Shown here: positions 23,712 to 46,200 of the stretch, piece after piece
Layout: each line of letters opens with the position of its first letter
Numbering within the stretch: the stretch's first letter is position 1
From: Myxococcales bacterium
GTDB lineage: Bacteria > Myxococcota_A > Polyangia > Palsa-1104 > JAEUJZ01
Direction of reading: 5' to 3'
DNA: 64,000 bases
NCBI GenBank assembly: GCA_016794505.1
Contig: JAEUJZ010000158.1
Coordinates: forward strand, 1 to 64,000
The notes under the pieces: generated by a model
Told to the model about the DNA's origin: nothing
The model's database searches: none
What the model saw: only the letters and a program-made list of their open reading frames with translations
Made by a program: the position numbers and the translations under genes

Positions 23712-23730
23712 CCACCCCAACTAGGCTCCT

Positions 23731-26700: not shown

Positions 26701-26841
26701 TACGAGATCGAGTTTCCCATGGCCGCCGTGATCCTCGGCGGTCTCGCCAGCTCGACCCTCCTAAACCTGCTGTTTGTCCCAGCGCTCTACGCCGCCTATG
26801 GCGAACCTGCGTCGTCACGCCACCCCGGAGAAGAGACATGA
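23731..26841 (+). CDS. Heavy-metal-type (CzcA/CusA family) RND efflux pump
   Basis: 1036 aa inner-membrane proton antiporter. It has the 12-helix RND plan with two large periplasmic loops. The N-terminus ([23 protein letters not shown]) and the helix-4 motif [13 protein letters not shown], carrying the proton-relay acids, are typical of the CzcA/CusA subfamily. The methionine pairs used by CusA for copper are not obvious, so the ion is unknown. Its stop overlaps the start of the outer-membrane channel gene (ATGA). The downstream two-component genes probably regulate the operon. Confidence 0.93.
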
Positions 26842-28109: not shown

Positions 28110-28123
28110 TACACGAGGCCCGC

Positions 28124-28849
28124 ATGCGACTGCTTCTTGTTGAGGATGATCATCGCCTGGCGCTGTCGATCGCCGCCGGTCTGAGCGAAGAGGGCTTCAC
28201 CGTCGACCTCGAAGCGGATGGTCCACCAGGCCTCGCCGCGCTCCAGCGCCATCCCTATGACGCCTGTGTGCTCGACATCAACCTGCCGACACCCACCTGT
28301 GATGGCATTGCTGTCCTCGCCACTGCGCGGGCTATGGGCTGCACGGTGCCCATCCTGCTGCTGACTGCGCGCGACGCCGTGCCCGATCGCGTACGCGGGC
28401 TCAACGAAGGCGCCGATGACTATTTGGTCAAGCCCTTCGCCTTTGCCGAGCTTCTGGCACGTCTGCGCTCCATTCTTCGTCGTGGAACACCGCAGCGCCG
28501 CTCTTCTTTGTCATGCGGTGCCTTCGTGCTCGACCTGGTACATCGCGAGGTCCGCGTTGGCGATCAGCGCATCGACCTGACGCAAAAGCAGCTCACCTTG
28601 CTCGAATACCTGTTCTTGCACCGCGGCCAGATCGTCACGCGATCGATGCTGTGGTCGGGCGTCTGGGGGTATTCCTTCGACCCTGGAACCAACGTCGTGG
28701 ATGCCCACATCGCGCAGCTTCGTCGTCGCATCGAAGCGGCCGGTCATCGCTGCCCCATCGAGACCGTCCGCGGGCTTGGGTATCGCGTCGGCACGCCGCA
28801 GCCATGCGGTTTGCCCGCGCTACCTAGCGGGGACGAGCATGGGCGCTAA
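28124..28849 (+). CDS. OmpR-family response regulator of the efflux operon
   Basis: 241 aa from the ATG at 28124. Receiver domain 1-118 has the acidic pair EDD, phospho-acceptor Asp51 (VLDINLP) and Lys in LVKPF. A winged-helix DNA-binding domain follows (about 130-228, ending TVRGLGYRVG). The start was placed at ATG 28124 behind ACGAGG; a GTG at 28106 overlapping the channel stop is possible. The gene overlaps the sensor kinase start. It most likely controls the efflux operon in response to metal, as in CusR/CzcR systems. Confidence 0.9.
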   Translation: MRLLLVEDDHRLALSIAAGLSEEGFTVDLEADGPPGLAALQRHPYDACVLDINLPTPTCDGIAVLATARAMGCTVPILLLTARDAVPDRVRGLNEGADDYLVKPFAFAELLARLRSILRRGTPQRRSSLSCGAFVLDLVHREVRVGDQRIDLTQKQLTLLEYLFLHRGQIVTRSMLWSGVWGYSFDPGTNVVDAHIAQLRRRIEAAGHRCPIETVRGLGYRVGTPQPCGLPALPSGDEHGR

Positions 28850-29969
28850 TGCACGCACTTCGCTGCATGGATTGCGGGCGCTGCGCGTTCGGCTCGTGAT
28901 CTTTTTTGCCGCCGTGCTGACCGCCGCCTTGCTCGTGTTTGGCGGCACGGTGTACGTCGCTGCTGTCCTCGCCGAAGCAGCAGAACAAGAGCCTGAATCC
29001 GAAAAGCAGCGCGAGCTTGCCCACATCCGTGGCCTCCTTGCGCTCGCTTCTGTGGTTGGAATTCCCATCACCATCAGCGCGGCTCTGTTCGGCGCCCGTC
29101 TGCTCAGCCATCACGCGCTTGAGTCCGTCGGGCGTATCGTCCGCACCGCCAACACCCTCACGCTCGACCACCTCGATGCTCGCCTGGCATGCCAGCCTGG
29201 ATCAGGCCGAGAGATCGAAGAGCTTGTCGACGCCCTCAACGCCATGCTGGATCGCATCGGCCGTGCAGCCCGCAGCCTGCGTCGCTTTACCGCCGATGCA
29301 GCGCACGAGCTACGCACGCCCATCGCAGTGCTCAGCAGCGAGATCGAAGTCTGCCTGCGCCACCCGCGTGACCCCGACACGCTGCGCGCCACGCTCGGCG
29401 CAGCACTCGAAGGACTCGGCAGCCTGTCGCGCTTGGTCGATGTCCTATTAACGCTGGTGCGCAGCGATGCCGGCGAGCTTCCCATCGCGCCAACACGCAT
29501 CGATCCCGCAGTGCTCATCACGCAGATCGCAGCACCGTTTGACGGCATCGCTGCAGAACGGAACCTGCGGCTGTGCATTGAGTTGCCCGCTCCACCCGCT
29601 TCTGGCTGTGCATCGGCACTTGCGTTGTCTACCGATCCCTTGCTCCTCGGCCGCGCTCTTGCCAACCTGCTCGACAACGCATGCAAGTACGCTACGGAAG
29701 GCGGCGTCATCACGGTCGCGCTGCGAAGATGCACCGACGATCTTCAGATCATCGTGCGCGATAGCGGCCCCGGCATGAGCGCGCTCGATCTGGCCCACGC
29801 ATGCGATCGCTTCTATCGTGGCTCTGCTCACCGCGGCAGCACCGAAGGCTTCGGCCTGGGCCTGTCGCTCACGCAAGAGTTCATGCGCATCCTCGGCGGC
29901 AGCCTAACCATCGCGGCCGCCCAGCCCGCCGGCCTTGTCGCCACGCTGACTCTGCCAAGGATGCATTGA
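28839..29969 (+). CDS. Sensor histidine kinase of the efflux operon
   Basis: 376 aa. Two membrane helices (about 18-40 and 68-92) enclose a very short periplasmic loop of about 27 residues. A HAMP-like linker is followed by HisKA with phospho-acceptor His in AAHELRTPIAV near 155, and an ATPase domain with NLLDNACKYA, DSGPGMS and GFGLGLSL. CusS/CzcS-type sensors usually have a larger periplasmic domain, so sensing here may occur in the membrane or through the pump. The start overlaps the response regulator stop by 11 nt. Confidence 0.9.
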   Translation: MGANARTSLHGLRALRVRLVIFFAAVLTAALLVFGGTVYVAAVLAEAAEQEPESEKQRELAHIRGLLALASVVGIPITISAALFGARLLSHHALESVGRIVRTANTLTLDHLDARLACQPGSGREIEELVDALNAMLDRIGRAARSLRRFTADAAHELRTPIAVLSSEIEVCLRHPRDPDTLRATLGAALEGLGSLSRLVDVLLTLVRSDAGELPIAPTRIDPAVLITQIAAPFDGIAAERNLRLCIELPAPPASGCASALALSTDPLLLGRALANLLDNACKYATEGGVITVALRRCTDDLQIIVRDSGPGMSALDLAHACDRFYRGSAHRGSTEGFGLGLSLTQEFMRILGGSLTIAAAQPAGLVATLTLPRMH

Positions 29970-31904: not shown

Positions 31905-34900
31905 TTACCAGATCGTCTGCTCGGTGCTGCTCTGCGCGCTGTTCACGCCGGCATTGGCACCGCCAAGCTGATAGATGAACGCGCTTTCCAGCGCCGTGCC
32001 CTGCAGCGCGCGGGGCTGCAGCAACACGCCACCGCCCAGCGAATTGAAGTTGCTCAGCGTGCTCGCGGTGACCATCTGCGCCGTCACCGATGCCGTGGTC
32101 GCCGAGCCAGCCTGGAAGCCTCCGAAGGCCATCATCTGGTTGTTGATGACCAAGCCGCCGTACGCCGGTCGGCCCAAGTTGTTCGCGCCCGAGTCGGCAA
32201 AGGCAAAGGTCGTTGTCATGCTCGGCAAGCCGATCTGGCCACCGGTCAGGACCAAGCCCACGTCGACGTTGCGGGTCAGGTTGGTCACGCTATTCGTCGA
32301 GCCGCCGCCGACATACAGGTACGTTGCAGCGCCCATGACTTTGCTGTTGTTGGCGGCCGTGGCCGGCATGGCAGGCGCCGCCCAGCGGGCGCTGGTCAGC
32401 GTGGCCGTGGCAGCGGTCCATGTGCCAACCGTCTGTGTCTGCTGCGTGCCGCTGTCCGTGACCGTGATGGGCAGGAACTCGACGCTGGAAAGCGCCGTCG
32501 GAGCTGCCGGCGTGCCTGTCGCTCCACCTGCCGCGTACAGGTACCAGCGATCCGGCCGCCCTGGATCGGGATCGCGCGCCGCAGCCACAGCGGCCCCGAT
32601 GCGAGCGCTGGCTAGCTGCGGCAGCACGGCGCTCCACGATCCGGTCGTGCCGATCGGCAGTGGCACCGCACCGGCCGGTGTGACGTTGCCCTGATCCGTG
32701 GTGGTCTGCGTGGCCATGCCCATGACGTGTGACACCGTCGCCAGCAAGCGCTCGCTGCCGGCTGCGCCGTTGACCTGCGTGCGAAAGATCTTGTAGCTGG
32801 CGGCATTCGGTACGGCGGGCCAGAACAGCTGAACGCGAATAAAGCCTTGGGCCAGCGTCGGCACCTGCACGGGGAAAAAGTCGCTGGCCAGCGTTTCTCC
32901 GCTTGGGTTGTTGGCGTCGGCGTTGTTCAGCACGGCCGCGATGCGATAGATGTACAGGCCGCCGGGAACGCCGCTCATGCTGTCGAGGATGTAGTTGGCA
33001 TCCGAGAACTGCGGCGCGTTGAGCGGGCTTAGGATCTCGGCGCGATACACGCTGCGCGAAGCCGCGGTGCCGTCGAATCCACCGACGACATAGATGAAGC
33101 GACCAAGGACCGCGGCGCCGGGGAACGACAGGCTCTTGGGCAAGGTCGGTGTCAGCGTGAAGAACGCGCCAAGCGTGCCATCGAGCGCGGTGCTCGCGGC
33201 TTCGATCGACGACTTGGGCGCGTTGTCCGCTCCGTTGTCGCCAGCGATGGCATAGACATAGCGCGCCACGGCCGTTGGTCGGCCCGCCACCGCGGCCAAG
33301 GCGCGACGAGGCGTGGTCAGGTTGTTGCCCGCCTTAAAGCCCGTCAGGTTCAGCGATGACCCAGTGACACCCACCGCCGAAAACGTGAACGACGACCCGT
33401 CACTGTTGCTGTACCGCAGCGTGCAGTACAGCGTGCCGTTGGGCGCGGTCAGACGAACGCTGGCGCTCAGGCCATCGGCAGCCGCCGAGAGCAGCGTGCC
33501 CATGCCGCCGTTTACGACGGCGTTGTTGGTGTCATAGCACGTGAGCTGCAGCGTGGCGCCAGCCCGGAAGCCGCTGCCTGAAAGCGCGACATCGGTCGGC
33601 GTGTTCTGCACCAGCGATGCAGGCGCTACTCCCGTAATCACCGGAGGAGGCGCCGCCGCGGTGGTGACGGTAAAAGCCCGTGCCGCCAAGCCAAAGGTGC
33701 CGTTGGCATTGACGACAACCAAGTCATACGCCTGCGGCGTCAGATTGGCGCGCACCACGCTGTTCAGCGAAGTCGCGCTGTTGAATGTGACGGCCGATAG
33801 CGACTGCGCCGTGCCCACACCGCTGTTGGGGCTGAGATAGGCGCGCGGCACACTGATGAAGCCGCTGCCAGCGATAGCGCTGGCCGTGTTCTGTGCCGTA
33901 CTGCCAAAGGCCGGCGTCATGCTGGTCACCGTCAACGTCGGCGTGGTCACCACGCGGAAGGCATTCGGCAAGTACGCCGAGCACGTCGAGCTATCGTCGA
34001 GGCGCAGGTCATACATGCCCGCTGGGAGCTTGCCCTTTTCCAGCGTGAGGTACGCGCGGTTGATGAACACCGGATCCAGACCGAGGGCCGGTGTGCTGGC
34101 GGCATTGAACGTCAGCACAGGGGTGTTGCTGCCCGCGGGATAGACGCGAACTTCGCGAATCGTCGTCGAGACACCGGCTGCAAAAATCGTCGCCCGCAGC
34201 GTGATGATGCTCGGCACCACAGGCGGATCGACGAACAGAATGACGGGGCCTGCCGTGACCGTCTCGACCTGGGGCAGCGTCGCTGAACAGGCGGCAACCC
34301 CTGGAACGTTTTCAATCGTCAGATCGGCCAGCATGGCACCGGTCACTGGAATCGGGCCGCCCAGCGTTGCCGTCGCCGTCTGCGGAACTCCGGTGCCCGT
34401 CGGGGTTACCGAGAGCCCCGGTGAGGCAACGCCGCCGATCACCATGCGCCCTCCGGAATAGATATTCCGTCCCGTCACGCTGACCTGGCCCCCGCCGGTA
34501 CACATCGATCGCGGGTTGGGATTGGGCGGAACCACCGATGCGGCATCCAAGGTTGGAGCGCCAACGACGTTGATCTGCAGCGCTGTATCGACGACACAGG
34601 CGTTTTGGCCAGGGTTGCGCAGCACCGCTTGATAGCTGCCTTGCGCCACCGCTCCCGTTGGGATCGACACGGTCAGCGCCGTGCAAAGTTGAGCGTCTGG
34701 CGCATCGGCAAGGCTCACCGGCTGGCACGAGGCCGTGTCAACTGTCGTCGGGAACGACAGGCCGTTTAGCTCAAGCACAGGGCTTCCCGCGGGGTTTGAC
34801 AGCAGCAGGAAGTTCGTCCCGGTGATCTGCAGGTTGGTTGTGCCCAAGGCACAGACCGCAAGGGTTGTGCTCGACGTGATGGTGGGCGGAGGAATCAGCA

Positions 34901-35774
34901 CCGTGCGGCTGGCGCCAGGATTCTGCGCATCAGGAACGCTGCTGCAGCCCGCCGAGCCGGGGTTTTTCACCACCACTTGATACGTGTCCGGCGGCAGCGC
35001 GCTCTGCGCCACGTCGACCGCAAGCTGCGTGCAGTCCTGCAGCGCAAGCCCCGCCGGGGCCGGCAGCGCAGTACATGCAGAAGCAGAGCTGGCCGTGACC
35101 GTGACCGGCGAACCTGTGCCCTGGATCGGCGTGAACGTGACGCTGGGCAGCGCGCCATCCAGCGAAAGAAAGTGCGCGCCATCCACCGTAAAGCGATTGG
35201 CTGCCTGCGCGTTACACGACGGCGTGGGCACGATGCGCGACACGCTGGGCGGCTGCACAACGGCCAGCGCGCTGGCCAAGCTCGCCATGCGCTGATCGGG
35301 GTTGCGCACGCTCACGCTGTACAGACCGAAATCGAGATCCGATCCCGCCTCGCCGGTCTTTTGGTCTTTGACGACCATGCCAGGATAGACGGTAAAGGTC
35401 ATCTGCTGCGCGCTCTGCCAGGTCACCGGGGTTGCGCCCAGCGGATCGGTGCCATCGAACAGCGCGATCTCTTGTTGGCCACCTGGCGATCCATCGCTGC
35501 GCTGCGCTTGCGACAGGCTGATCTGCGGCAGCTTTAAGCGAGTGCCCTCGACGAGCGAGTCCAACGTCAGCGGAGTGAAGCCCTCGCCACGTAGCTGCAC
35601 GCTCGTGCTTAGCTGACTGCCACAGACCACCTGAGGAGACACGGCAGACACGGCAATCTCGGGGGACTGCACGCTGCTGCCACAGCTTGATGAAGACAGC
35701 GCAGCGAAAGCAGAAAGAGCGATCCAAACAGACGAAGTCGCAAGCAAGCTCGTACGTCGCATGACCTTCCTCAT
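31905..35774 (-). CDS. Giant lipoprotein with TIG/IPT repeats and a Kelch-like propeller
   Basis: 1289 aa. A signal peptide ends SSSSCGSS (lipobox Cys near 31). The first 800 residues carry about seven IPT/TIG-type immunoglobulin-like repeats, each opening with phrases such as SPQVVCGS, PPTITSSTTL, TPTLTVTSMTPAFGS and VITGVAPASLVQ. The last 450 residues contain Kelch-type blades (ARYVYAIAGDN, GRFIYVVGGFDGT, RWYLYAAGG, MMAFGGF). Such proteins act in adhesion or cell-surface binding in other bacteria. Start at 35774 overlaps the stop of the TPR gene as ATGA. Second gene of a probable sigma-54-driven operon. Confidence 0.75.
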   Translation of the reverse strand: MRKVMRRTSLLATSSVWIALSAFAALSSSSCGSSVQSPEIAVSAVSPQVVCGSQLSTSVQLRGEGFTPLTLDSLVEGTRLKLPQISLSQAQRSDGSPGGQQEIALFDGTDPLGATPVTWQSAQQMTFTVYPGMVVKDQKTGEAGSDLDFGLYSVSVRNPDQRMASLASALAVVQPPSVSRIVPTPSCNAQAANRFTVDGAHFLSLDGALPSVTFTPIQGTGSPVTVTASSASACTALPAPAGLALQDCTQLAVDVAQSALPPDTYQVVVKNPGSAGCSSVPDAQNPGASRTVLIPPPTITSSTTLAVCALGTTNLQITGTNFLLLSNPAGSPVLELNGLSFPTTVDTASCQPVSLADAPDAQLCTALTVSIPTGAVAQGSYQAVLRNPGQNACVVDTALQINVVGAPTLDAASVVPPNPNPRSMCTGGGQVSVTGRNIYSGGRMVIGGVASPGLSVTPTGTGVPQTATATLGGPIPVTGAMLADLTIENVPGVAACSATLPQVETVTAGPVILFVDPPVVPSIITLRATIFAAGVSTTIREVRVYPAGSNTPVLTFNAASTPALGLDPVFINRAYLTLEKGKLPAGMYDLRLDDSSTCSAYLPNAFRVVTTPTLTVTSMTPAFGSTAQNTASAIAGSGFISVPRAYLSPNSGVGTAQSLSAVTFNSATSLNSVVRANLTPQAYDLVVVNANGTFGLAARAFTVTTAAAPPPVITGVAPASLVQNTPTDVALSGSGFRAGATLQLTCYDTNNAVVNGGMGTLLSAAADGLSASVRLTAPNGTLYCTLRYSNSDGSSFTFSAVGVTGSSLNLTGFKAGNNLTTPRRALAAVAGRPTAVARYVYAIAGDNGADNAPKSSIEAASTALDGTLGAFFTLTPTLPKSLSFPGAAVLGRFIYVVGGFDGTAASRSVYRAEILSPLNAPQFSDANYILDSMSGVPGGLYIYRIAAVLNNADANNPSGETLASDFFPVQVPTLAQGFIRVQLFWPAVPNAASYKIFRTQVNGAAGSERLLATVSHVMGMATQTTTDQGNVTPAGAVPLPIGTTGSWSAVLPQLASARIGAAVAAARDPDPGRPDRWYLYAAGGATGTPAAPTALSSVEFLPITVTDSGTQQTQTVGTWTAATATLTSARWAAPAMPATAANNSKVMGAATYLYVGGGSTNSVTNLTRNVDVGLVLTGGQIGLPSMTTTFAFADSGANNLGRPAYGGLVINNQMMAFGGFQAGSATTASVTAQMVTASTLSNFNSLGGGVLLQPRALQGTALESAFIYQLGGANAGVNSAQSSTEQTIW

Positions 35775-36952
35775 TTCGCGCTGCGGCTCTTCAACGTGAT
35801 CACCACACCGCCAATCAACGAAACCGCACCGGTCCCCGCAAGAAACCCACCTGAGACCAGCATGCCGCGCTGGTGTGTAGAGCCCGCGCCACCGTCTGCT
35901 GTCGTCGTGGCACCGATGGCTAGCAGCGTCACGCCACCGGCCACAAACGCCGCCCCAATCGAGATCAACGCCAGGCCTGCACTGCGCGGTGGACGCGTGA
36001 ACTCACTCGGTGGCGGCGGCGGTGGCGGCGGCGGCGGCGGCGGCGTGACTTCCGCCGGCTCAGGCTTGACGTCGGCGGCCGAGACCTCGGCGATCTCGCG
36101 ATCGATGGCGGGCTGCTCTGCCGCGGGACGATGGCCGCGATACTCGCGCAAGTAGCTCAGCGCCATGTCTTTCTGACCCAGCTTCAGCGCGACCTTGTGC
36201 AGGTTGTACAGAAGATCGGGTTCCTTCGAGATCTCATACGCCGTGGTGAATTCATCGAGCGCAACCTCGTATTTGCGATCGCGAAAAGCCTGCTCTCCCG
36301 CCTCGAAATGTTGACGGGCTAGCGCCAGTTTTTCAGGGGGCAGACTGACCGAAGGCGCATCCGAACCAGTCGGTGCCGGCGTCGCGGAGGGTGTCGCGGA
36401 GGGCGTCGCAGAAGGCGCCGCGGCAGGCGCCGCAGAAGGCGCTGTACCTGTCGCGCTTTGTGGCGCTGTCGCGGTGGATGCAGAGGGGCTGCTGGCTGCC
36501 GCCGCGCTGGGCACCGCAGGCGCACCGGGCGTGCTGGCGCTGGAATCCGCTGCAGGCGCAGCCGCGGGGCTCGCTGCTGCAGAGGAATCAGACGGACCAG
36601 GCGGACCAGACGGACCAGACGGACCAGACGGACCAGACGGACCAGACGCACCCGCCGCCGTGGTCGGTGTATTGGGAGCAGCCGTGGGCGCAGGCGCCGC
36701 GGGCTTCGGCGCGGCCGGGCCGGGCTTGGCTGCAGCCGGGCCGGGCTTGGCCACCGCAGGCTTGGGCTTGGTCATCGCGGGCTTCGGCTTGGCCGAAGCT
36801 GCCGTTGGTGTCGCGCTGCGTGCAGTCGATGCGAGCAGCAGCAACAAGAGCACGATCGACCCAGCGCGTGCGTGTGCATTCGCTGCGCGGTGCGGACACG
36901 GGACAGCAGCACGAGACAAAAGGACAACCGATCGAGGGGTTCTTGCGGTCAT
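35771..36952 (-). CDS. TPR protein with Pro/Ala-rich and collagen-like repeats
   Basis: 393 aa from the ATG at 36952. A signal peptide (GSIVLLLLLLASTARSA) precedes long Ala/Pro/Lys-rich linkers, a run of six Gly-Pro-Ser/Gly-Pro-Pro triplets coded by 9-bp DNA repeats, TPR-like helices (about 205-290, FEAGEQAFRDRKYEVALDEF), a twelve-proline stretch and two C-terminal membrane helices. A longer frame reaches 37012 with a ribosome-site-like GGGAG. That start lies upstream of the predicted sigma-54 promoter at 36989-37004, so 36952 is preferred. First gene of an operon with the TIG/Kelch and barrel genes. Confidence 0.65.
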   Translation of the reverse strand: MTARTPRSVVLLSRAAVPCPHRAANAHARAGSIVLLLLLLASTARSATPTAASAKPKPAMTKPKPAVAKPGPAAAKPGPAAPKPAAPAPTAAPNTPTTAAGASGPSGPSGPSGPSGPPGPSDSSAAASPAAAPAADSSASTPGAPAVPSAAAASSPSASTATAPQSATGTAPSAAPAAAPSATPSATPSATPAPTGSDAPSVSLPPEKLALARQHFEAGEQAFRDRKYEVALDEFTTAYEISKEPDLLYNLHKVALKLGQKDMALSYLREYRGHRPAAEQPAIDREIAEVSAADVKPEPAEVTPPPPPPPPPPPPSEFTRPPRSAGLALISIGAAFVAGGVTLLAIGATTTADGGAGSTHQRGMLVSGGFLAGTGAVSLIGGVVITLKSRSAK

Positions 36953-36988: not shown

Positions 36989-37004
36989 TGCAACCGCAAG
37001 GCCA
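36989..37004 (-). promoter_or_regulatory. Predicted sigma-54 promoter of the TPR/TIG/barrel operon
   Basis: On the minus strand TGGCCTTGCGGTTGCA has the sigma-54 signature: GG at -24 and GC at -12 separated by exactly ten bases, with TTGCA at the -12 element. The predicted transcript starts near 36978, 26 nt before the ATG at 36952. A site for the neighbouring NtrC-like regulator lies at 37106-37122, about 130-145 bp upstream, a normal enhancer distance. Confidence 0.65.
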
Positions 37005-37105
37005 AGCCGCACGAATCTCCCGCAATCGATGCACTACTCGACGGAAATAACTCATTCTTCTAACAACTCGGCAGTCGCGCATCGCAGGAATCTGGGCCTT
37101 CTGTG

Positions 37106-37122
37106 TCCCGTTTGGTACGCGC
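37106..37122 (-). promoter_or_regulatory. Candidate NtrC-type enhancer half-site
   Basis: The plus strand reads CCCGTTTGGTACGCGC here, nearly identical to the sequence at 42801-42814. Its complement contains GTACCAAACGG, one full arm plus the start of the second arm of the palindrome GTACC-AAAC-GGTAC seen at 42818-42837. A further half-arm (ACCGTACAGG) lies at 37133-37142. Position is about 130-145 bp upstream of the start predicted for the sigma-54 promoter at 36989. Confidence 0.5.
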
Positions 37123-37154: not shown

Positions 37155-38597
37155 TCAGAGCATGCCGATGTACGCCAGCAAGCCGACCGAAACGCTCGGC
37201 TTTACGTACTGAAAAAATGGCTCACTCGACTGGTTAAACAGCACGCTGCCACCGACGAAAGCCGACAACCACGAGACCATCGCGATCTGCAGGTTGATGT
37301 CTTGATAGATCGCGTAGTCCACGCGACCGCTGTCGAACAAGCGATGCAGCAACGTACTGGTCAACGACAGCTCGACGCGCGTGTGCAGACGAACCCGCAG
37401 CCATGCCAAGGGTCCATGAACCCAGGCGCGGAAGTCCTGCGTCATGTCGGCATCGGGACTCTGCGTCTGCTCGCGCAGTCCTTGATAGCCGATTCCAAAG
37501 CTGACTGGCTGCGGCGAAAGCCCGAAACCCAGCTCTAGCTGCGCGGTCTGCGACAGCCCGCTTAGCGCAGCAAAGTCAACCTTGCGGTACTCGCGATAGC
37601 GCGCTTCGTACGTTCCAGAAAGTCCCCACTGCGTGCGCAGCCGCCGTCGGTACTGAACACGCGCCGTGCCGTCGAGATACATGAAGCTGGAACCCAGCAC
37701 AGCCAAGCTCAGCGCACCGGATAGACGCAGACGATTTGTCGCGCTGAGGTGACTGAACTGCAGCCACGTCGAATTCAAGAGCAGGTTGAAATCCGTGAGC
37801 CGCAGCTGCTGTCGATACGACAGCGTGTTGCCAAACAGCAGGCCAGAGCGCAGGGGGCGCACGCCCACGCTGGCCAAGAACAGCACGTCTCCGTCCATGC
37901 TGGCTTGCGGGTCACGCTGCCAGGCAGGAACGCTTGGCCCGTCGAGATACAGAGGTGAGAGCGGTACGTTGCCATCGAACTCGGGCGACACCAGAAGCGA
38001 GACATGCAGCCGATGCGGGCGGTTCTGACGCAGCAGGCGCTCGGCCGACTCGCGCAACGCCAGTGAACCTGCCGCGTTGCTCAGCTCGCGACGGGCTTGG
38101 TCGCTGGCCCCCTGCTCAGCGTAGACCTGAGCCAAAAAGATCGCCGCTTGGCCGCGCGTCTCGCTGTCGCTCGACTCGGCCGCTTGCTGCAGCTCAAGCT
38201 CTGCGGCGTCGAGCTTTTCCAAGCGGTACGCGCAGATGCCCAGCAAAAGCAGCGTGTCAAAAAAGCGAGGATCGCTGCGTCCCAGTTGGGCATGCGCCTG
38301 CAACAACGCGGAACGGGCGGCGGCGTAGTCCCGCTGCTTGAGCAACGTCAGAGCCCGCCGTAGCTGCCCGTCCACGTCGCTGTCCGCGGCACGACGCGCG
38401 GAGGGTGAATCTGACGCCGCGGCGACCTGATCTGCCGGATGCGGACTAGGCGCGCCGACCGGCAATGCAGCTGCTGGCACATCCCCTGCATTCCTGCTTG
38501 GCGATGCAGCGTGGGCCGGCAGCACAAGCCACAGACTCGACACGCCGAAGACCGCATGCGCTCCCCAGCTTGCAAGCCATCGGCCCAGGGGACGCAT
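37155..38597 (-). CDS. Outer-membrane protein with TPR domain and beta-barrel
   Basis: 480 aa. A signal peptide (about 1-30, ending VLPAHA) is followed by a linker, then TPR helices (about 78-190, LLKQRDYAAARSALLQAH and LLLLGICAYRLEKLDAAELE). About 270 residues of alternating beta strands follow (from LHVSLLVSPEFDGN), ending with a hydrophobic strand. This layout, TPR plus barrel, fits an outer-membrane secretion or assembly protein, but the exact family was not recognised. The start codon overlaps a regulator palindrome (38597-38612), so repression by its binding is possible. A neighbour of the two-component system on the opposite strand. Confidence 0.6.
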   Translation of the reverse strand: MRPLGRWLASWGAHAVFGVSSLWLVLPAHAASPSRNAGDVPAAALPVGAPSPHPADQVAAASDSPSARRAADSDVDGQLRRALTLLKQRDYAAARSALLQAHAQLGRSDPRFFDTLLLLGICAYRLEKLDAAELELQQAAESSDSETRGQAAIFLAQVYAEQGASDQARRELSNAAGSLALRESAERLLRQNRPHRLHVSLLVSPEFDGNVPLSPLYLDGPSVPAWQRDPQASMDGDVLFLASVGVRPLRSGLLFGNTLSYRQQLRLTDFNLLLNSTWLQFSHLSATNRLRLSGALSLAVLGSSFMYLDGTARVQYRRRLRTQWGLSGTYEARYREYRKVDFAALSGLSQTAQLELGFGLSPQPVSFGIGYQGLREQTQSPDADMTQDFRAWVHGPLAWLRVRLHTRVELSLTSTLLHRLFDSGRVDYAIYQDINLQIAMVSWLSAFVGGSVLFNQSSEPFFQYVKPSVSVGLLAYIGML

Positions 38598-38612
38598 GTA
38601 CCAAATGGTACA
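38597..38612. promoter_or_regulatory. Palindromic operator TGTACC-N4-GGTACA
   Basis: TGTACCAAATGGTACA is a near-perfect palindrome of the same kind as the one at 42818-42837. It resembles the classic NtrC site (TGCACC-N5-GGTGCA) in form. It covers the start codon of the minus-strand gene at 38597 and lies just upstream of the -35 position of the plus-strand promoter at 38636, centred about 43 bp before its predicted start. This location suits activation of the plus-strand operon and repression of the minus-strand gene. Confidence 0.6.
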
Positions 38613-38635: not shown

Positions 38636-38641
38636 TATAAT
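38636..38641 (+). promoter_or_regulatory. Consensus -10 box for the two-component operon
   Basis: A perfect TATAAT lies 14 nt before the ATG at 38656. The -35 position (38613-38618, AGCCAG) is poor, as expected for an activator-dependent promoter, and the palindrome 38597-38612 ends directly before it. Confidence 0.5.
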
Positions 38642-38655
38642 GAGGTTAGGTTTTC

Positions 38656-39186
38656 ATGTCCTATGTGTGGCAAACACGCCTTGGGCTGACGTTCGCGCTG
38701 CTGGCTCTAGGGCTGCGTGGGTCGGCTGCGGCCGATGAGCCATCCGGGCCGCTTGCCGCCATGCGCGAAGCCGCCGAAGCGCTGGCCGAGCTAGATCCTG
38801 CAACTCCCGCGGTGGGTGATGCCCTGCGACTACACAAGAGCACACCAAAGGCTGCACATGGCGAAGGTGGAAGTGCAGCAGCCAGCGCGGACGCTCTGCG
38901 TGCCGCGTTACGAGCGGCGGCACGCGAAGAAGTAGCGCGTGATCTGGCGGCAACCAATCCGCCGGGCCGCGGTGCAGGCATCGCAGCGGCCCGCGGCAAA
39001 GAAGGCAGCAGCGCAGGCACGGACAAAGAAGCGCGAGAGCAGGCGCGCGGCGCCGCCGTCCAAGCGCAGTCGGCCAAGGCTGTGGGCGTTCACCGCAACG
39101 TAGAGCTGCAGCGCGGCCTCGGCAACGGCAACAGCAATGGCAACGGCCGCTCGGCCCTAAATGCCGGGACAGGGCCCAGCAAGTAG
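38656..39186 (+). CDS. Small secreted Ala-rich protein of unknown function
   Basis: 176 aa. A signal peptide (about 1-25, ending GSAAA) precedes an alanine-rich, helix-forming region (about 35-150) with many charged residues and a glycine/asparagine-rich end (GLGNGNSNGNG). I recognise no family. It is the first gene of a run 38656-42791 with TPR protein, sensor kinase and regulator, with gaps of 9, 15 and 26 nt, so it is probably co-transcribed. A periplasmic signal or accessory protein for the kinase is one possibility, with no direct support. Confidence 0.55.
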   Translation: MSYVWQTRLGLTFALLALGLRGSAAADEPSGPLAAMREAAEALAELDPATPAVGDALRLHKSTPKAAHGEGGSAAASADALRAALRAAAREEVARDLAATNPPGRGAGIAAARGKEGSSAGTDKEAREQARGAAVQAQSAKAVGVHRNVELQRGLGNGNSNGNGRSALNAGTGPSK

Positions 39187-39195
39187 CGATCTCGC

Positions 39196-40014
39196 ATGCA
39201 GAGCGGGCACCTCTTTTCCTCACTCTCTGTGCTGTGCTGGGCGCTCTGCGCCGGGCCAGCGCACGCGCAGAGCGTTCGGTCAGAGCCCGCGCCAGCCGTC
39301 TCTCCATCAGCGCCTGCAGCATCGCTGGCCGAACACAAGAAGCCCGTCGAATCGACGGTTCAGCTGCAGCTTCTGGAAGGCGTGCGTCTGTTCCGCGCCG
39401 AGCGCTATGAAGATGCGCTGCGTGTCTTTCAACAGGTAAACACCGACGAGAAATCCACCGATATCGGTTTTTATTTGGGTATGGTTTTGCACAAGTTGGG
39501 GCGTCACAGTGCCGCTCTTATCGCCTTTCGCAGTACGCAGCGCAGTGGACTGCGCGAACCGGTCGCTGATTACTATGCCGCTGTCAGTTGTTATCGCTTG
39601 GGCATGAACACCCGAGCGCGTCGGGGGTTCGCATCCCTGGCCGCCGCAGCCAGTGGACCTGCGCCCGGTGTCCCCCCGCTGGGGCCGCGCCTGCAACAAG
39701 GGGCGCGCAACTTTCTTTCTGCGCTTCCGCCCAGTGCCGTCGAGACGGCCAGCGACGGCGGCAGTTCCTCGATTCACCTGCAGTACGAGCGAGCCCGACA
39801 AGCCGCCGAGCGCCTGCTCGCAAGCGATGATGCAGAAGGTGCGCTGGAGTGGCTCGATGAAGCGGGACAGATCCTGGAAGAAAGCCCCGACCCGCGCGAA
39901 CGAGCAGAGCACAGCGACGAGCTGCGCGCCCTTTTAAATCGACTGCGCAGCAAGCCGGGATCACATGTGCGCACGGCCGACGTGCAGGCCCTTGAGCAGC
40001 GCCTTGCCCACTAA
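39196..40014 (+). CDS. Secreted tetratricopeptide repeat protein
   Basis: 272 aa. A signal peptide (about 1-24, ending AHAQ) precedes at least two TPR units (about 55-130, LLEGVRLFRAERYEDALRVF, then FYLGMVLHKLGRHSAALIAF, then AAVSCYRLGMNTRARRGF) and a C-terminal helical pair near 200-250. TPR proteins scaffold complexes, so a periplasmic partner of the kinase encoded next is plausible. Lies 9 bp after the Ala-rich gene and 15 bp before the kinase. Confidence 0.65.
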   Translation: MQSGHLFSSLSVLCWALCAGPAHAQSVRSEPAPAVSPSAPAASLAEHKKPVESTVQLQLLEGVRLFRAERYEDALRVFQQVNTDEKSTDIGFYLGMVLHKLGRHSAALIAFRSTQRSGLREPVADYYAAVSCYRLGMNTRARRGFASLAAAASGPAPGVPPLGPRLQQGARNFLSALPPSAVETASDGGSSSIHLQYERARQAAERLLASDDAEGALEWLDEAGQILEESPDPRERAEHSDELRALLNRLRSKPGSHVRTADVQALEQRLAH

Positions 40015-40029: not shown

Positions 40030-41340
40030 ATGAGACCGCGGGCCGCAGCTTGGTTGCTTCTGTCGGTGGTTGCCTTCTTGGTGATCAGCGCAGGGATCAG
40101 CCTGCGGCTTTTGCACGTTGGCCTGCAGGCGGTCAACGCAACGACTGAAGGTCGCCTGCGAGCCATCGGACAGACCGCAGTGCAAGCGGTGACGCGCGGG
40201 GCAGGCGCCGATTTTCTTTCGGGGATCAGTCGCGAAAACGAGCTGGAAGCGGCGTATCTGCTCGACGCGGCGCTGCGTCCGCTGGGAGAGCAAGGTGGGC
40301 TGTCGATTAGTTTGCTGCGCATCGATCCCGATCGCGCGCAGCGCGCACTGCAAGGTCAGGCCTCGGTGGGACCAGCCTATGGTCTAGAGGATGTTGAGCG
40401 ATCCAGCGATGGTGCAGTGGTGCTGGCCGGCTACTTTCCAGTGCCAGGATCCGCGCACCGTGTACTCGTCTTGGAAGCAGGCAGTGCGTTTGCCGCGCTG
40501 CCGACACGGCTGCGCGCTAGCGCCTATTCATCGGCCGCGGCTGCGGTGGCCTTGGCCGCGCTGTGCGTCGTGCTGGTCGTCCTCGGGCTGCGAGCTGCCA
40601 GGCACCAGGAAGCCTTGCGCACGGAAGCAGCGCGCGGGCAAGCGGTGCGCGAGATGGCAGCCATGGTGGCGCATGAGCTGCGCAATCCGCTGGGAACCAT
40701 CCGGGCTGGCGCCGAGCTTCTGGCTGAGCAAGCCGCGGACCCCACGCTGATTCACGACATCCTCGATGAAGTACGCCGCCTCAACGAGCTGACAACGCAG
40801 TTTCTGAACTTCGCCAAAGAGACGCCGCTTTCCATCGCAGAGCTAGATCTTCGCGAGCTGAGCGCTGAAGTCTGCGCGCATATGGCAAGGCAGCAAGCCC
40901 ACGTCGATGCGCTGCATATTGAGTGCGTCGGTGATCAGGCGGTGCGTTTGTATGGCGACCGCGATCGGCTGCGGCAAGTGCTGTTGAACCTGACGCAGAA
41001 CGCCGTGCAAGCCATGGATGGTCGCGGCGAGCTGCGCATCTCGACGCACGGCTTGCCAGACGGCGGTGGTGAACTGCGCGTCGCCGACAGCGGGCCAGGC
41101 ATCCGAGGGGAACAGCTGCGCGCGTTGTTCATGCCCTTTCGTACCACCAAACCCACGGGCACCGGCCTGGGCTTGGTGGTGTGTCGCCGCATCATCGAAC
41201 AGCACGGTGGCAGCATCGGTGTTGCCACGCCGGCCGTCGCAGAGTCCGCCGCTGAAAAGCAGCTATCGGGGGCCTGTTTCGTCATTCGCTTGCCCGCGCG
41301 GCCCCCAACCTCGACGAGCCAGGCCGCGTCGTCCGCCTAA
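40030..41340 (+). CDS. NtrB-type sensor histidine kinase
   Basis: 436 aa. Membrane helices at about 7-28 and 165-190 flank a periplasmic sensor region of about 135 residues with no family recognised. A HisKA domain follows with His near 215 (MVAHELRNPLGTIRAG) and an ATPase domain with NLTQNAVQAM, DSGPGIR and GTGLGLVVCRRI. This is the kinase subtype that pairs with NtrC-like regulators. It lies 26 bp before such a regulator. A signal in the periplasm is likely, given the sensor region and the secreted proteins around it. Confidence 0.9.
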   Translation: MRPRAAAWLLLSVVAFLVISAGISLRLLHVGLQAVNATTEGRLRAIGQTAVQAVTRGAGADFLSGISRENELEAAYLLDAALRPLGEQGGLSISLLRIDPDRAQRALQGQASVGPAYGLEDVERSSDGAVVLAGYFPVPGSAHRVLVLEAGSAFAALPTRLRASAYSSAAAAVALAALCVVLVVLGLRAARHQEALRTEAARGQAVREMAAMVAHELRNPLGTIRAGAELLAEQAADPTLIHDILDEVRRLNELTTQFLNFAKETPLSIAELDLRELSAEVCAHMARQQAHVDALHIECVGDQAVRLYGDRDRLRQVLLNLTQNAVQAMDGRGELRISTHGLPDGGGELRVADSGPGIRGEQLRALFMPFRTTKPTGTGLGLVVCRRIIEQHGGSIGVATPAVAESAAEKQLSGACFVIRLPARPPTSTSQAASSA

Positions 41341-41366: not shown

Positions 41367-42791
41367 ATGGGAAACATCCTGCTCTGTGATGACGAACCCA
41401 AGCTGAGCCGCATGCTGGGCACGGCCCTCACCGCAGCGGGTTATGCCGTGCAGCGTGTGGCCACCGGCCACGAGGCGATCAAGCGTGCGCAGAGCGATGC
41501 CCCCGATGTCGTGGTCACAGATCTGCGGCTTCCCGACATGGACGGCATCGAGGTGCTCAAGCGCGTGCGCGATGCCGCGAACCCACCGGATGTCATCGTC
41601 ATCACCGCGTACGCATCAACGGAAACCGCCGTCGAGGCCATGCGCCTGGGGGCCCACGATTACTTGATCAAGCCCTTTTCCATTGATGAGCTGCGCATCA
41701 AGCTTGCGCGCCTGCTCAGCCGTCGCGCGCTGCAGGAACAAAACGGTCAGCTGCAAGCGCAGCTCAGCATGATTCATCGCGCCGAGAGCTTGATTGGCAC
41801 CTCGGCTCGCATGCGCGAAGTGTTCGAACAGCTCAGTCAGGTTTCGACGACCGATGCCACGGTGCTTCTGCTAGGCGAAAGTGGGACGGGCAAGACGCTC
41901 TTGGCACGCGCTCTTCATCACCAGTCGCGCCGACACAGCGGCCCGCTGTGCGAAGTCCACTGCGCCGCACTGCCTGAGACCTTGCTCGAAAGCGAGCTGT
42001 TTGGTCATGAGCGCGGCGCCTTCACGGGCGCGATCGAGCAGCGCACCGGCCATGTCGAGCGCGCCGATCGAGGCACGCTTTTCCTCGATGAAATCGGCGA
42101 GCTGCCCGCGTCGATTCAAGTGAAGCTGCTGCGCTTTCTGCAAGATCGCCGCTTTTTTCGCGTCGGTGGCACCCAGGTTCGCTCGGTCGATGTGCGCTTC
42201 GTCTGCGCCAGCAACCGCGACCTTGCGCAGGCGGTGCGCGACCGCAGCTTGCGCGAAGATTTCTATTACCGCATCAACGTCTTTCCCATCGTGGTGCCCC
42301 CCCTGCGTGAGCGCAGCGATGACATTCCCGCGCTGGTAAACAGCTTTGTGCAGCGTCGGCACCGCGGGGCTCACGTGGCACTGGATGCCATGGAACTTCT
42401 GCAGCGCTATCCCTGGCCGGGCAACGTGCGCGAGCTAGAAAATGTCCTAGAGCGCGCCCTGATCTTGGCGGGAGGCGGAGGCTTCGTGGGCCCAGACAGC
42501 TGTGCCGAGCGCAGTTCCGTGACGATCCGCCTTTCGCATCTGCCACGCGTGCTCAGCGAACACGCGCGCCCGATCTTGCCCAGCAACCTGTTTCAGCCCG
42601 GCTTTTCCATCGACAACCTAGAGCGCGAGCTGATCCACGAAGCCCTGGCCCGCGCCTCGGGAAACAAGACCGAGGCCGCCAAGCTCTTGGGCATCACGCG
42701 GCGCCGCCTCTACTCGCGACTCAAGAGCATGGAGAACGATGTGCAAGGCGAAGAAGAGCCAGCCGGAACGCCTGGCCGCGATGCGATCTGA
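41367..42791 (+). CDS. NtrC-family sigma-54-dependent response regulator
   Basis: 474 aa. Receiver domain 1-120 with phospho-acceptor Asp52 (VVVTDLRLP) and Lys in LIKPFS. The AAA+ domain (about 143-375) has Walker A GESGTGKT near 171, the sigma-54-contacting GAFTGA near 217 and Walker B GTLFLDEIGEL. The C-terminal Fis-type helix-turn-helix is NKTEAAKLLGITRRRLYSRL near 434. All parts needed to activate sigma-54 promoters are present. It is the best candidate to bind the GTACC-N4-GGTAC sites at 37106, 38597 and 42802-42837, one of which follows its own gene. Confidence 0.93.
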   Translation: MGNILLCDDEPKLSRMLGTALTAAGYAVQRVATGHEAIKRAQSDAPDVVVTDLRLPDMDGIEVLKRVRDAANPPDVIVITAYASTETAVEAMRLGAHDYLIKPFSIDELRIKLARLLSRRALQEQNGQLQAQLSMIHRAESLIGTSARMREVFEQLSQVSTTDATVLLLGESGTGKTLLARALHHQSRRHSGPLCEVHCAALPETLLESELFGHERGAFTGAIEQRTGHVERADRGTLFLDEIGELPASIQVKLLRFLQDRRFFRVGGTQVRSVDVRFVCASNRDLAQAVRDRSLREDFYYRINVFPIVVPPLRERSDDIPALVNSFVQRRHRGAHVALDAMELLQRYPWPGNVRELENVLERALILAGGGGFVGPDSCAERSSVTIRLSHLPRVLSEHARPILPSNLFQPGFSIDNLERELIHEALARASGNKTEAAKLLGITRRRLYSRLKSMENDVQGEEEPAGTPGRDAI

Positions 42792-42801
42792 GTAAGCCGT
42801 T

Positions 42802-42837
42802 CCGTTTGGTACGCGGACCTGTACCAAACGGTACAGG
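42802..42837 (+). promoter_or_regulatory. Enhancer with one full palindrome and one half-site
   Basis: CCTGTACCAAACGGTACAGG at 42818-42837 is a perfect inverted repeat with a four-base centre. Just upstream, CCGTTTGGTACGCG (42802-42815) repeats one arm in the other orientation. Together they look like a paired enhancer, about 90-125 bp upstream of the predicted start of the sigma-54 promoter at 42901. It lies right after the NtrC-like gene and before the Cys-rich gene. Confidence 0.65.
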
Positions 42838-42900
42838 TGACACGAAAGAAGCACGTCTCTAGCGAGCGCGATCCAAGCGCATTTGCACACTTAGCTCGAC

Positions 42901-42916
42901 TGGCCTTGGTCTTGCT
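42901..42916 (+). promoter_or_regulatory. Predicted sigma-54 promoter of the Cys-rich gene
   Basis: TGGCCTTGGTCTTGCT shows GG at -24 and GC at -12 separated by ten bases. It resembles the promoter at 36989 (TGGCCTTGCGGTTGCA), sharing TGGCCTT and TTGC. The predicted transcript starts near 42927, only about 5 nt before the ATG at 42932, so translation would be nearly leaderless. Confidence 0.6.
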
Positions 42917-42931
42917 GCAGTTCTTTGCTTC

Positions 42932-44545
42932 ATGACGAACCACACCAGCAAAACCCAACACCTGTTTCGCATTCTCTGTCTGTGTACGGTCTTTCTATTC
43001 CTTCGCTGCGGCGGCTGCGATGGCACAACGACCGGCGGCGATCCGCCCATCGACGGCGATATGTCCGTCGGCATGTGCCTCGCGGATAGCACAAGCTGCG
43101 TCAATCACACCGACTGCTGCAGCGGCACCTGTGATCCGGGCACCAATACCTGTTCGACGGTCATGATGTCCTGTCTGAACTTCGGCCAGGCCTGCACCGA
43201 CAACGGCGCCTGCTGCTCGGGAATCTGCGATCCAAACAGCAAGACCTGTGGTCAGGCGTGCTTGCCGCAAGCGGCTACCTGCTCGGTGAATGCCGACTGC
43301 TGCTCGGGCACCTGCGACAACGCGACCAAGAAGTGTACGCAGCCGATTGCTTGCAAGCCCACCGGATCAACCTGCACCACAGGCGCCGAGTGCTGTGGCC
43401 TCAGCTGCAATGGCGGCATCTGCCAGGCCACCTGCACCAGCGACGGTATGAGCTGCACGACGGGCGGCCAGTGCTGCAGCGGTCTGTGCAGCGGCACGCC
43501 GATGGCCTGCCAGCCGATCAATCCCGGCGCGGGCTGCAAGTCCTCGGGCAATAGCTGCACCGTGAACACGGACTGCTGCTCGGGTCTGTGCGATCAGACG
43601 TCGAAGACCTGCCGCGCGGCGTCTTCGTTCTGCCGCCAGCGCAACGACATCTGCACGCAGAACAGCGACTGCTGCGAACAGAACTGTGTCAAGCCCGTGG
43701 GCAGCACAAACGGCGTCTGCCAGGCCCTGCCCACAAGTGGCGCGGGTGGCTGCAGCGTCGCTGGCACGCTGTGCCAGCAGTGTACTTGCTGCAGCGCGCT
43801 GTGCTTGGCCTACGCCGGAGGCCCCACCAAGGTCTGCCAGAACCCGCAAGGCTGCCACCCCACGGGCGACCTGTGTACCAAGAACAGCGACTGCTGCGGC
43901 TATGCCGGCAGCGGCCTGCCTGGCGACGGTCAGGTCTATTGTGAGAAGTCGGCTGGCTATGCCGTGGGCGTCTGCCGCAAGCCGACGGGCTGCAACCCGC
44001 AGGGCAACATCTGCAAGTACACCGGCACCGTGCAGGCCTGCGGCATCGCCCGCAACAACTGCTGCGACCAGCCCGGTGGCCCTGGCTCTTCCTGCAAGCT
44101 CGACGCGCAGGGCGTGCCGCGCTGCTATGGCATCAACTCGTGCCGCATGTCGGGCGAGACCTGCTCGAACACGGCCGACTGTTGCAACAACCTGGCCTGC
44201 ATCCCCGACGCGATGGGCATTCTCAAGTGCGGCAACATGGGCATGAAGTGCTCGCCTTCAGGTGGCTCGTGCAGCGTCGCGGCCGACTGCTGCACCGTCG
44301 GTGACAAGTGCATCACAGCCCCCGGATCGGTCCAGGGTATCTGCACGCCGCCTGCGACGCCTGACGGCGGTACTGCGGATGGCGGCACCGATGGCGGCAC
44401 CGCGCTCTGCGCCGAATACGGACAGGCCTGCCGCGTCGGTGGTACGCCGTGTTGCAACGGCGTGCAGTGCAGCAAGCCGGGTGGCTTCGGCGATCCCTGC
44501 GCCGCTGGGGACACCGACTGCACCTGCTACAAGCCCATTCCGTAG
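42932..44545 (+). CDS. Secreted cysteine-rich repeat lipoprotein
   Basis: 537 aa. A signal peptide (about 10-27) ends FLRCGGC, a possible lipoprotein site. The body is a chain of about ten short Cys repeats of the form C-x-x-x-x-x-C-CSG-x-C-x-x-x-x-x-x-C (for example NADCCSGTCDNATKKC), each of about 35-45 residues and likely held by disulfides. Similar repeats occur in Myxococcota surface proteins of unknown function. It ends in a Asp/Gly-rich linker and a final Cys-rich unit. Preceded by a sigma-54 promoter and an NtrC-type enhancer. Likely a secreted, surface-exposed product of this regulon. Confidence 0.75.
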   Translation: MTNHTSKTQHLFRILCLCTVFLFLRCGGCDGTTTGGDPPIDGDMSVGMCLADSTSCVNHTDCCSGTCDPGTNTCSTVMMSCLNFGQACTDNGACCSGICDPNSKTCGQACLPQAATCSVNADCCSGTCDNATKKCTQPIACKPTGSTCTTGAECCGLSCNGGICQATCTSDGMSCTTGGQCCSGLCSGTPMACQPINPGAGCKSSGNSCTVNTDCCSGLCDQTSKTCRAASSFCRQRNDICTQNSDCCEQNCVKPVGSTNGVCQALPTSGAGGCSVAGTLCQQCTCCSALCLAYAGGPTKVCQNPQGCHPTGDLCTKNSDCCGYAGSGLPGDGQVYCEKSAGYAVGVCRKPTGCNPQGNICKYTGTVQACGIARNNCCDQPGGPGSSCKLDAQGVPRCYGINSCRMSGETCSNTADCCNNLACIPDAMGILKCGNMGMKCSPSGGSCSVAADCCTVGDKCITAPGSVQGICTPPATPDGGTADGGTDGGTALCAEYGQACRVGGTPCCNGVQCSKPGGFGDPCAAGDTDCTCYKPIP

Positions 44546-44769: not shown

Positions 44770-46200
44770 ATGTCCTTCCGAACCACGTCTTCCCGGTGTG
44801 TACCTCTGTCCTTGGTGTTGTCGCTACCGCTGGCGCTGCTCTCTGCGTGTAGCTCGGGCACGGTTGGCCCCGACCCATACGTTGGAAACTTCACGCCGGT
44901 AAAAGTCCCCGGCTGCACGGGTGTCTGCGCCGTCCGTACCGACTGCCCCGTCGAGCTGGGCGGCAACATGAAGATCCGCGGCACGGTCAACATCCCAGCC
45001 GGCAACCTGCCCGTGTACAACGCCCGCGTCTACATTCCGTTGGATGTCGTGCCGGCCAAGCCCATGACCGGGCCGGTCTGCGATCGCTGCAGCAATTCGG
45101 TGATCGCAGCCGCCCTCGCCACCACCAGCGCCGATGGCTCGTTCGAGCTCTCGGATGTGCCCGCAGGCGAAAACATTCCGCTGGTGATCAGCGTCGGCAA
45201 GTGGCAGCGCATCATCACCTTGCCCAAGGTCGAGCCCTGCGGCTCGCTGAACCTAAGCGCCGATCAGACCCGCCTGCCGCGCAACCAGTCGGAAGGCAAC
45301 ATTCCCAAGATCGCGCTGACCACAGGAGGCGCCGATGCCATGGAGTGCTTGTTGCGCAAGAACAAGCTGGGCCTCGATGACTCGGAGTTCACGCTGCCCG
45401 ACGGAACCGGCCGCGTAAACCTGTACGCCGGAGGCGGCTATACCGACACGATGAGCATGGCCCATCCCTCGACCAGCAAGCTGTCAGCGGGCTTCAACGG
45501 CGGCGCCGCCGCGGTCAGCTTGCCGTCCGTCAACCCGTGGTGGGATCAGGAACCCAACCTCAGCAAGTACGACATCGTTGTGATGTCCTGCGAAGGCGCC
45601 CCTAGCGCCAGCATGAAGAGCGCAAGCGCCAAGGCCGCGATCAAGAGCTATCTCGACAAGGGCGGTCGCGTCTTCGCATCGCACTATCACTCGGAATGGC
45701 TGCGGCAGGGCGTCGCTCCGCTCAACACCGTGGCCATGTTCAATGCCACGCTGACCGGCCCCGATCCCGGCGAAGCCACCATCGATGAAAGCTTCGACAA
45801 GGGCAAGGCGCTCGCCGACTGGCTGCAGCTTCCCAACGTCGCGGCCAGCGCCAAGCGCGGTGTGATTCCGATCACGCAGGCTCGCTACACCGTGCAGTCG
45901 ATCAACACCACGCAGGCCGTAAACGCGCGGCGCTGGGCGTACTACAAGCCCGCCACCGGGAACGAGCTAACGCAGTATTTCTCGTTCGATGCTCCGGTCG
46001 GGGCCATGCCCAATCAGCAGTGCGGACAGATGGTGTACACCGATCTGCACGTGTCGGCGGGCACCAACGGAGCGACGGAAGACGGTGCCGGTCCCGACTT
46101 CCCCAGCGGCTGCAAGTCGGGCTCGCTGTCGCCGCAAGAAAAGGCGCTGATCTTCATGCTCTTTGATCTCAGCAACTGCCTGAGCACACCCATTGGCTAA
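44770..46200 (+). CDS. Lipoprotein with carboxypeptidase-regulatory-like domain and amidotransferase-like fold
   Basis: 476 aa from the ATG at 44770 (GGAGAG upstream). The signal ends LLSACSSG (lipobox). An N-terminal beta-sandwich of the carboxypeptidase-regulatory type (about 50-150, IRGTVNIPAGNLPVYNARVY, TTSADGSFELSDVPAGENIP) is followed by a region recalling ThuA/glutamine-amidotransferase folds (about 230-470, YDIVVMSCEG, GGRVFASHYHSEW, VYTDLHVS). No catalytic triad is certain. Lies 224 bp after the Cys-rich gene; same-strand neighbours suggest a shared surface function. Confidence 0.65.
   Translation: MSFRTTSSRCVPLSLVLSLPLALLSACSSGTVGPDPYVGNFTPVKVPGCTGVCAVRTDCPVELGGNMKIRGTVNIPAGNLPVYNARVYIPLDVVPAKPMTGPVCDRCSNSVIAAALATTSADGSFELSDVPAGENIPLVISVGKWQRIITLPKVEPCGSLNLSADQTRLPRNQSEGNIPKIALTTGGADAMECLLRKNKLGLDDSEFTLPDGTGRVNLYAGGGYTDTMSMAHPSTSKLSAGFNGGAAAVSLPSVNPWWDQEPNLSKYDIVVMSCEGAPSASMKSASAKAAIKSYLDKGGRVFASHYHSEWLRQGVAPLNTVAMFNATLTGPDPGEATIDESFDKGKALADWLQLPNVAASAKRGVIPITQARYTVQSINTTQAVNARRWAYYKPATGNELTQYFSFDAPVGAMPNQQCGQMVYTDLHVSAGTNGATEDGAGPDFPSGCKSGSLSPQEKALIFMLFDLSNCLSTPIG

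Follow-up and report, generated by a model that had tools for sequence, protein, structure and literature searches.

The locus lies in a Myxococcales genome (G000; 9.2 Mb in 191 contigs) and is described within a window, i.e., the whole 64-kb stretch of DNA that was analysed (G+C content, 64%). An operon for a membrane histidine kinase and an NtrC-type response regulator is followed by a gene for a Cys-rich exported protein and is divergent from a gene for an outer-membrane barrel protein. The relevant features are as follows.

31905-35774, minus strand: lipoprotein, 1289 aa, with Kelch/TIG matches
35771-36952, minus strand: TPR protein, predicted to have two TM segments and likely to be controlled by the second promoter
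36989-37004, minus strand: second predicted -24/-12 element, TGGCCTTGCGGTTGCA (weighted scan)
37104-37119: fourth dyad, TGTCCCGTTTGGTACG as read on the plus strand (weighted scan, matrix)
37155-38597, minus strand: outer-membrane protein with an N-terminal TPR domain and a predicted 14-stranded beta-barrel (structure model)
38597-38612: third dyad, TGTACCAAATGGTACA (pattern core 38598-38611, matrix)
38656-39186, plus strand: small exported protein, first in the operon
39196-40014, plus strand: exported TPR protein that serves as a conserved marker of the module (domain and homologue searches)
40030-41340, plus strand: membrane histidine kinase (HisKA/HATPase)
41367-42791, plus strand: NtrC-type response regulator
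42798-42813: candidate activator-type dyad 1, CGTTCCGTTTGGTACG, CGTTCC-GTTT-GGTACG (repeat finder, pattern search, matrix)
42820-42835: candidate activator-type dyad 2, TGTACCAAACGGTACA, TGTACC-AAAC-GGTACA (pattern search, matrix)
42901-42916, plus strand: predicted -24/-12 (sigma-54) promoter, TGGCCTTGGTCTTGCT, with a predicted start at 42927
42932-44545, plus strand: Cys-rich exported protein, 537 aa, probable lipoprotein

The regulator combines a receiver, an AAA+ domain and a Fis helix-turn-helix (domain search, Response_reg-Sigma54_activat-Fis) and has GAFTGA at residue 217, as is required of an NtrC-type (group I) bacterial enhancer-binding protein. In the kinase, a stretch of about 140 residues lies between two predicted TM segments. 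Among solved structures, ZraS is closest to the kinase, and ZraR is one of those closest to the regulator. A small exported protein similarly placed at the operon head is found in several related loci when these are compared by eye. The model of the barrel protein (mean pLDDT, 78; 14 strands) matches the folds of CymA, OmpG, PelB, and BcsC. RND efflux genes (HlyD, AcrB type, and OEP) lie elsewhere in the window (22461-29969), with genes for an OmpR-type regulator and a kinase after them.

An earlier note on this DNA described the product of the gene at 42932-44545 as a secreted lipoprotein with about ten Cys-rich repeats. The repeats are borne out: 86 of 537 residues (16%) are Cys, including 13 CC pairs, and the spacing C-x-C-x-CC-x-C-x-C occurs in 11 stretches. 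The protein is a probable lipoprotein. Its own lipobox is non-canonical (FLFLRC / RCGGC), but homologues have ordinary lipoboxes. The protein shares the repeated C-C-CC-C-C spacing of knottin (inhibitor-cystine-knot) proteins but has 11 or more such knottin-like modules in tandem in one bacterial envelope protein, and its matches to them are nonsignificant. A sequence search of the PDB and a search of NCBIfam returned no match, the Pfam matches (Conotoxin_I2 and Toxin_12) are both sub-threshold, and comparison of a low-confidence structure model (mean pLDDT, 58) with the PDB gave mostly colipase and knottins, all weak and none significant.

The lipoprotein genes that follow, at 44770 and 46228, may or may not belong to the transcript of the Cys-rich gene. 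No Pfam or NCBIfam family was found for the first of these (44770-46200), whose own family has six matches in the host genome and is also matched in 39 of 58 relatives. Two genomes of the same family as the host (G001 and G004) retain the 44770 lipoprotein without the module and are therefore uninformative about the promoter.

Dyads and -24/-12 elements in the window

The sequence between the regulator and Cys-rich genes contains overlapping inverted repeats (42792-42841; seen in the sequence and by a repeat finder). The paired palindrome that had been placed at 42802-42837 does exist but is better split into the two 16-bp dyads at 42798-42813 and 42820-42835. These palindromes (YGTACC-N4-GGTACR) have centres 22 bp apart, equal to two helical turns, and lie directly 3' of the gene for the GAFTGA-bearing activator, as had been noted. 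The sigma-54 element proposed with them is an exact GG-N10-GC match, TGGCCTTGGTCTTGCT, which also fits TGGCAC-N5-TTGCW, and the host genome has one rpoN gene, as a sigma-54 promoter requires. The dyads are 80 to 102 bp upstream of this element and at about -121 and -99 relative to the predicted start.

The ATG at 42932 is 5 nt past the predicted start, so that the mRNA of the Cys-rich gene would be almost leaderless. Among Cys-rich lipoprotein genes, the -12 C precedes the ATG by 17 nt in G000 (42915-42932) and G031 (L103:10485-10502) and by 15 nt in G002 (L099:6973-6958), which gives predicted leaders of 3 to 5 nt (5 and 3 nt in the two other genes). In none of these three genes could a Shine-Dalgarno sequence be made out by eye. 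The predicted 5-nt leader of the Cys-rich gene would be an unusual feature and counts against our main reading.

The third dyad lies between the operon and the barrel gene, directly before the start codon of the latter. A TATAAT sequence is present at 38636-38641, with the dyad near -44 of that element, and no convincing sigma-54 element was found near this dyad. The fourth dyad is followed after 114 bp by TGGCCTTGCGGTTGCA, upstream of the TPR membrane protein gene, whose start codon was reassigned in our analysis from 37012 to 36952. The adjacent lipoprotein gene (31905-35774) overlaps the end of the TPR gene and is therefore probably cotranscribed with it. In G005, paired dyads and a consensus -24/-12 element, TGGCACACTAGTTGCT, precede a homologue of the TPR gene on another contig (C688), which supports the second promoter in the window.

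The module and its predicted promoters in related genomes

The Cys-rich protein, TPR protein, kinase sensor, and barrel protein were used as queries to search for the module, together with a scan of GTDB contigs. The kinase/regulator module and the TPR protein are present in nine further genomes (G002, G005, G006, G010, G017, G031, G077, G084, and G089), which are incomplete bins from uncultured hosts. Matches to the module occur only in bins of uncultured Myxococcota or “Deltaproteobacteria,” and the TPR and beta-barrel outer-membrane protein is found in most of them. We found no description of the module in the open-licence papers searched.

Seven of the nine further genomes have the same palindromes, usually paired 21 to 22 bp apart (31 bp in one case among the module loci), at a conserved distance before a sigma-54 element; dyad-to-promoter distances cluster at 54 to 56, 65 to 67, and 75 to 80. 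The sites precede the module operon or genes for envelope proteins, i.e., the Cys-rich lipoprotein, a different Cys-rich lipoprotein, Big_2 and TIG lipoproteins, and the TPR membrane protein. G006 has the order TPR, barrel, kinase, and regulator genes, dyad TGTACCGAACGGGACG, element TGGCGTCGGTCTTGCT, ECF sigma factor gene, and Cys-rich lipoprotein gene, and TGGCGTCGGTCTTGCT is near-identical to TGGCCTTGGTCTTGCT and in the same place. The G002 operon and a divergent gene for a Cys-rich lipoprotein are separated by paired dyads, which have a sigma-54-like element on either side (TGGCCTAGTATTTGCA and TGGTATATAATTTGCT). In G010, one pair of dyads is likewise shared by the operon, served by TGGCACGTCCGGTGCT, and a divergent gene, served by TGGCCAACCGCTTGCA, whose product is a Big_2 lipoprotein (about 1,550 aa) containing 17 Big_2 stretches (L101:3121-7794). 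Paired dyads precede the operon in G005, with TGGCGCATCGCTTGCT, and dyads are found before both a Cys-rich lipoprotein gene and the operon in G031. Dyads with TGGCATCGCGCTTGCT precede the homologue of the window's TIG lipoprotein gene (31905) in G089, and dyads with TGGCACCTCGGTTGCT precede a small repeat protein gene, followed by the barrel gene, in G077.

The ECF sigma-70 gene of G006 (L077:1251-1901) lies between the sigma-54 promoter and the Cys-rich gene, an arrangement in which a sigma-54 to ECF cascade is possible. Two more high-scoring dyads, TGAACCGGTTGGTTCA and TGTCCCATCTGGTACA, occur near a contig end in G005 (L166:2741-2860) and could mark a further target. In G017 (L102:6539-10056), homologues of the regulator, TPR, and barrel proteins are mutually adjacent but no recognizable dyads were found; the binding site of this regulator may have changed. 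As a negative control, 10 loci with homologues of the Cys-rich protein but without the module lacked the combination of dyad and sigma-54 element upstream.

An enhancer and a sigma-54 promoter under the adjacent activator, as the earlier note proposed, are supported by this distribution: in other families of the class, orthologous regulators have both elements beside them at conserved spacing, and both are missing upstream of Cys-rich homologues that occur without the regulator. The elements, their spacing, and their conservation with the regulator can be read from the sequence. The compact unit of sensor, switch, and output described in the earlier note is recognizable in the kinase, regulator, promoter, and Cys-rich gene but is part of something larger. 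The further sites in the window, the second sigma-54 element, and the orthologous promoters of other envelope proteins point to a local regulon rather than to one gene, and occurrence of the same switch before other lipoproteins in related genomes makes it very probable that the promoter is real and belongs to an undescribed cell-envelope regulon.

A candidate sigma-54 switch and its alternatives

Our main reading, to which we assign a probability of roughly 85%, is that a kinase-controlled NtrC-type activator, acting on paired dyads, drives sigma-54 promoters of envelope genes, including the second promoter in the window, and probably its own operon. From what is known of these families, we infer binding by the regulator, phosphorylation, sigma-54 dependence, and export; direct control and the start site are computational predictions. 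The kinase would sense an envelope signal and phosphorylate the response regulator, which would then bind the same face of the DNA at the paired dyads, about 100 to 120 bp upstream, and its GAFTGA loop and ATPase would open sigma-54 RNA polymerase at TGGCCTTGGTCTTGCT. The Cys-rich envelope protein would be made from the almost leaderless mRNA. The same regulator would act on the second sigma-54 promoter (37004), from which the TPR membrane protein and probably also the 31905 lipoprotein would be expressed. The dyad at 38597 would probably let it control its own operon as well; such control is predicted in most lineages.

The least credible alternative is that all motif matches are due to chance and that transcription of the Cys-rich gene comes from a different promoter or from read-through. 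GTWCC-N4-GGTAC is rare, occurring at 17 distinct places in the 9.2-Mb genome, and 3 of the 17 are within 4.3 kb of each other in the window; the pattern was defined from two of the window dyads, and the third match (38598-38611) is independent of the definition. A search of 17 genomes with the combined dyad and sigma-54 pattern gave 40 matches, a total not above that of a reversed-pattern control, as chance would predict. Seven of the 40 are nevertheless in intergenic regions of the module, and an eighth is the C688 site of G005. Because some sites were already known when this pattern was drawn up, the case rests on shuffles, leave-one-out matrices, and the off-locus match in G005. The combined dyad and sigma-54 score exceeded 300 of 300 dinucleotide shuffles of the intergenic region in G000, G002, G005, G006, G010, G077 (two regions), and G089, and 299 and 290 of 300 in two regions of G031; the score was not significant against 300 shuffles in G084 and G017. 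Leave-one-out matrices placed the intergenic dyad first in all eight genome loci tested. A matrix trained on other genomes ranked the window's four dyads 1 to 4 in the 64 kb (23.4, 22.8, 19.3, and 14.6; next site, 13.0), with TGTACCAAACGGTACA at the top. The best sites in G084, which was not used in training, and in a second G005 locus (before the kinase gene) scored 18.4 and 18.7 and lie upstream of module genes; eight control loci scored at most 14.0. Such matches, in intergenic regions of orthologous loci in seven genomes, are hard to attribute to chance.

If the regulator binds the palindromes, it could instead act mainly as a repressor or activator of a sigma-70 promoter, as in autoregulation, with a coincidental -24/-12 match. 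The third dyad, near -44 of a TATAAT-like element and without a sigma-54 element, would suit such a role, and -24/-12 matches as good as TGGCCTTGGTCTTGCT occur about 15 times per 64 kb on both strands, so that the element alone is not rare. This reading is unlikely, given that seven other module genomes have sigma-54 elements with conserved spacing, that the element in G006 is near-identical, and that the regulator keeps the GAFTGA motif. Even less probable is an RNA hairpin that would terminate or attenuate transcription of the regulator gene, a role that the position of the palindromes directly after its stop codon and the possible long stem might suggest. We rejected this terminator or structured-RNA reading because the stretch has no T run, neither a terminator-like site nor an Rfam family was found in the window, and the same dyads lie upstream of operons and in divergent regions in G002, G005, G010, and G089.

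Relation to known systems and biological meaning

The sigma-54 switch proposed here resembles ZraSR/ZraP (HydHG) of Salmonella and E. coli, in which zraSR and zraP have divergent sigma-54 promoters under ZraR control (PMC4987338). Shared features are a membrane kinase with an NtrC-type regulator, sigma-54 promoters, and an exported envelope protein, and ZraSR-like divergent pairs of sigma-54 elements are present in G002 and G010, while the operon side in the window has a dyad without such an element. In contrast to ZraSR/ZraP, the module has an exported TPR protein, a TPR-barrel outer-membrane protein, varied lipoproteins, and its own binding site. The module proteins scanned gave no Pfam or NCBIfam match to a ZraP-type zinc chaperone and no evidence for zinc. 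With other partners and no ZraP, the module is not filed as a member of this system, though it would work likewise.

Nla28 of Myxococcus xanthus, from the same phylum, is also a sigma-54 activator of the NtrC family with multiple sites upstream of -24/-12 promoters, but its half-site, CT(C/G)CG(C/G)AG (PMC9765219), is unlike YGTACC-N4-GGTACR, and its developmental regulon comprises more than 100 genes. Slam (DUF560; type 11 secretion) proteins are outer-membrane proteins with a periplasmic TPR domain and a beta-barrel, encoded near lipoprotein genes (PMC8406197), and the predicted structure and position of the barrel protein are similar. Membership in this family was rejected, as PF04575 matched none of seven members of the barrel family and no protein of the host genome. 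Profile comparison of the barrel protein with one weak PF04575 protein gave a probability of 4%.

A more speculative reading, which we consider doubtful, is a surface-display system with exchangeable cargo, in which the sigma-54 two-component switch would coregulate a TPR-barrel exporter, unrelated in sequence to Slam, and the large lipoprotein of each lineage (Cys-rich with knottin repeats, Big_2, or TIG), some made from nearly leaderless mRNAs.

The analysis provides a recognizable DNA site and a candidate regulator for large envelope lipoproteins of uncultured Myxococcota, and it makes lipoprotein export by a TPR-barrel protein and nearly leaderless sigma-54 mRNAs open to experimental testing. 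The module would represent one conserved sigma-54 switch whose outputs, i.e., Cys-rich, Big_2, and TIG lipoproteins and an ECF sigma factor, have changed and whose DNA site has stayed the same.
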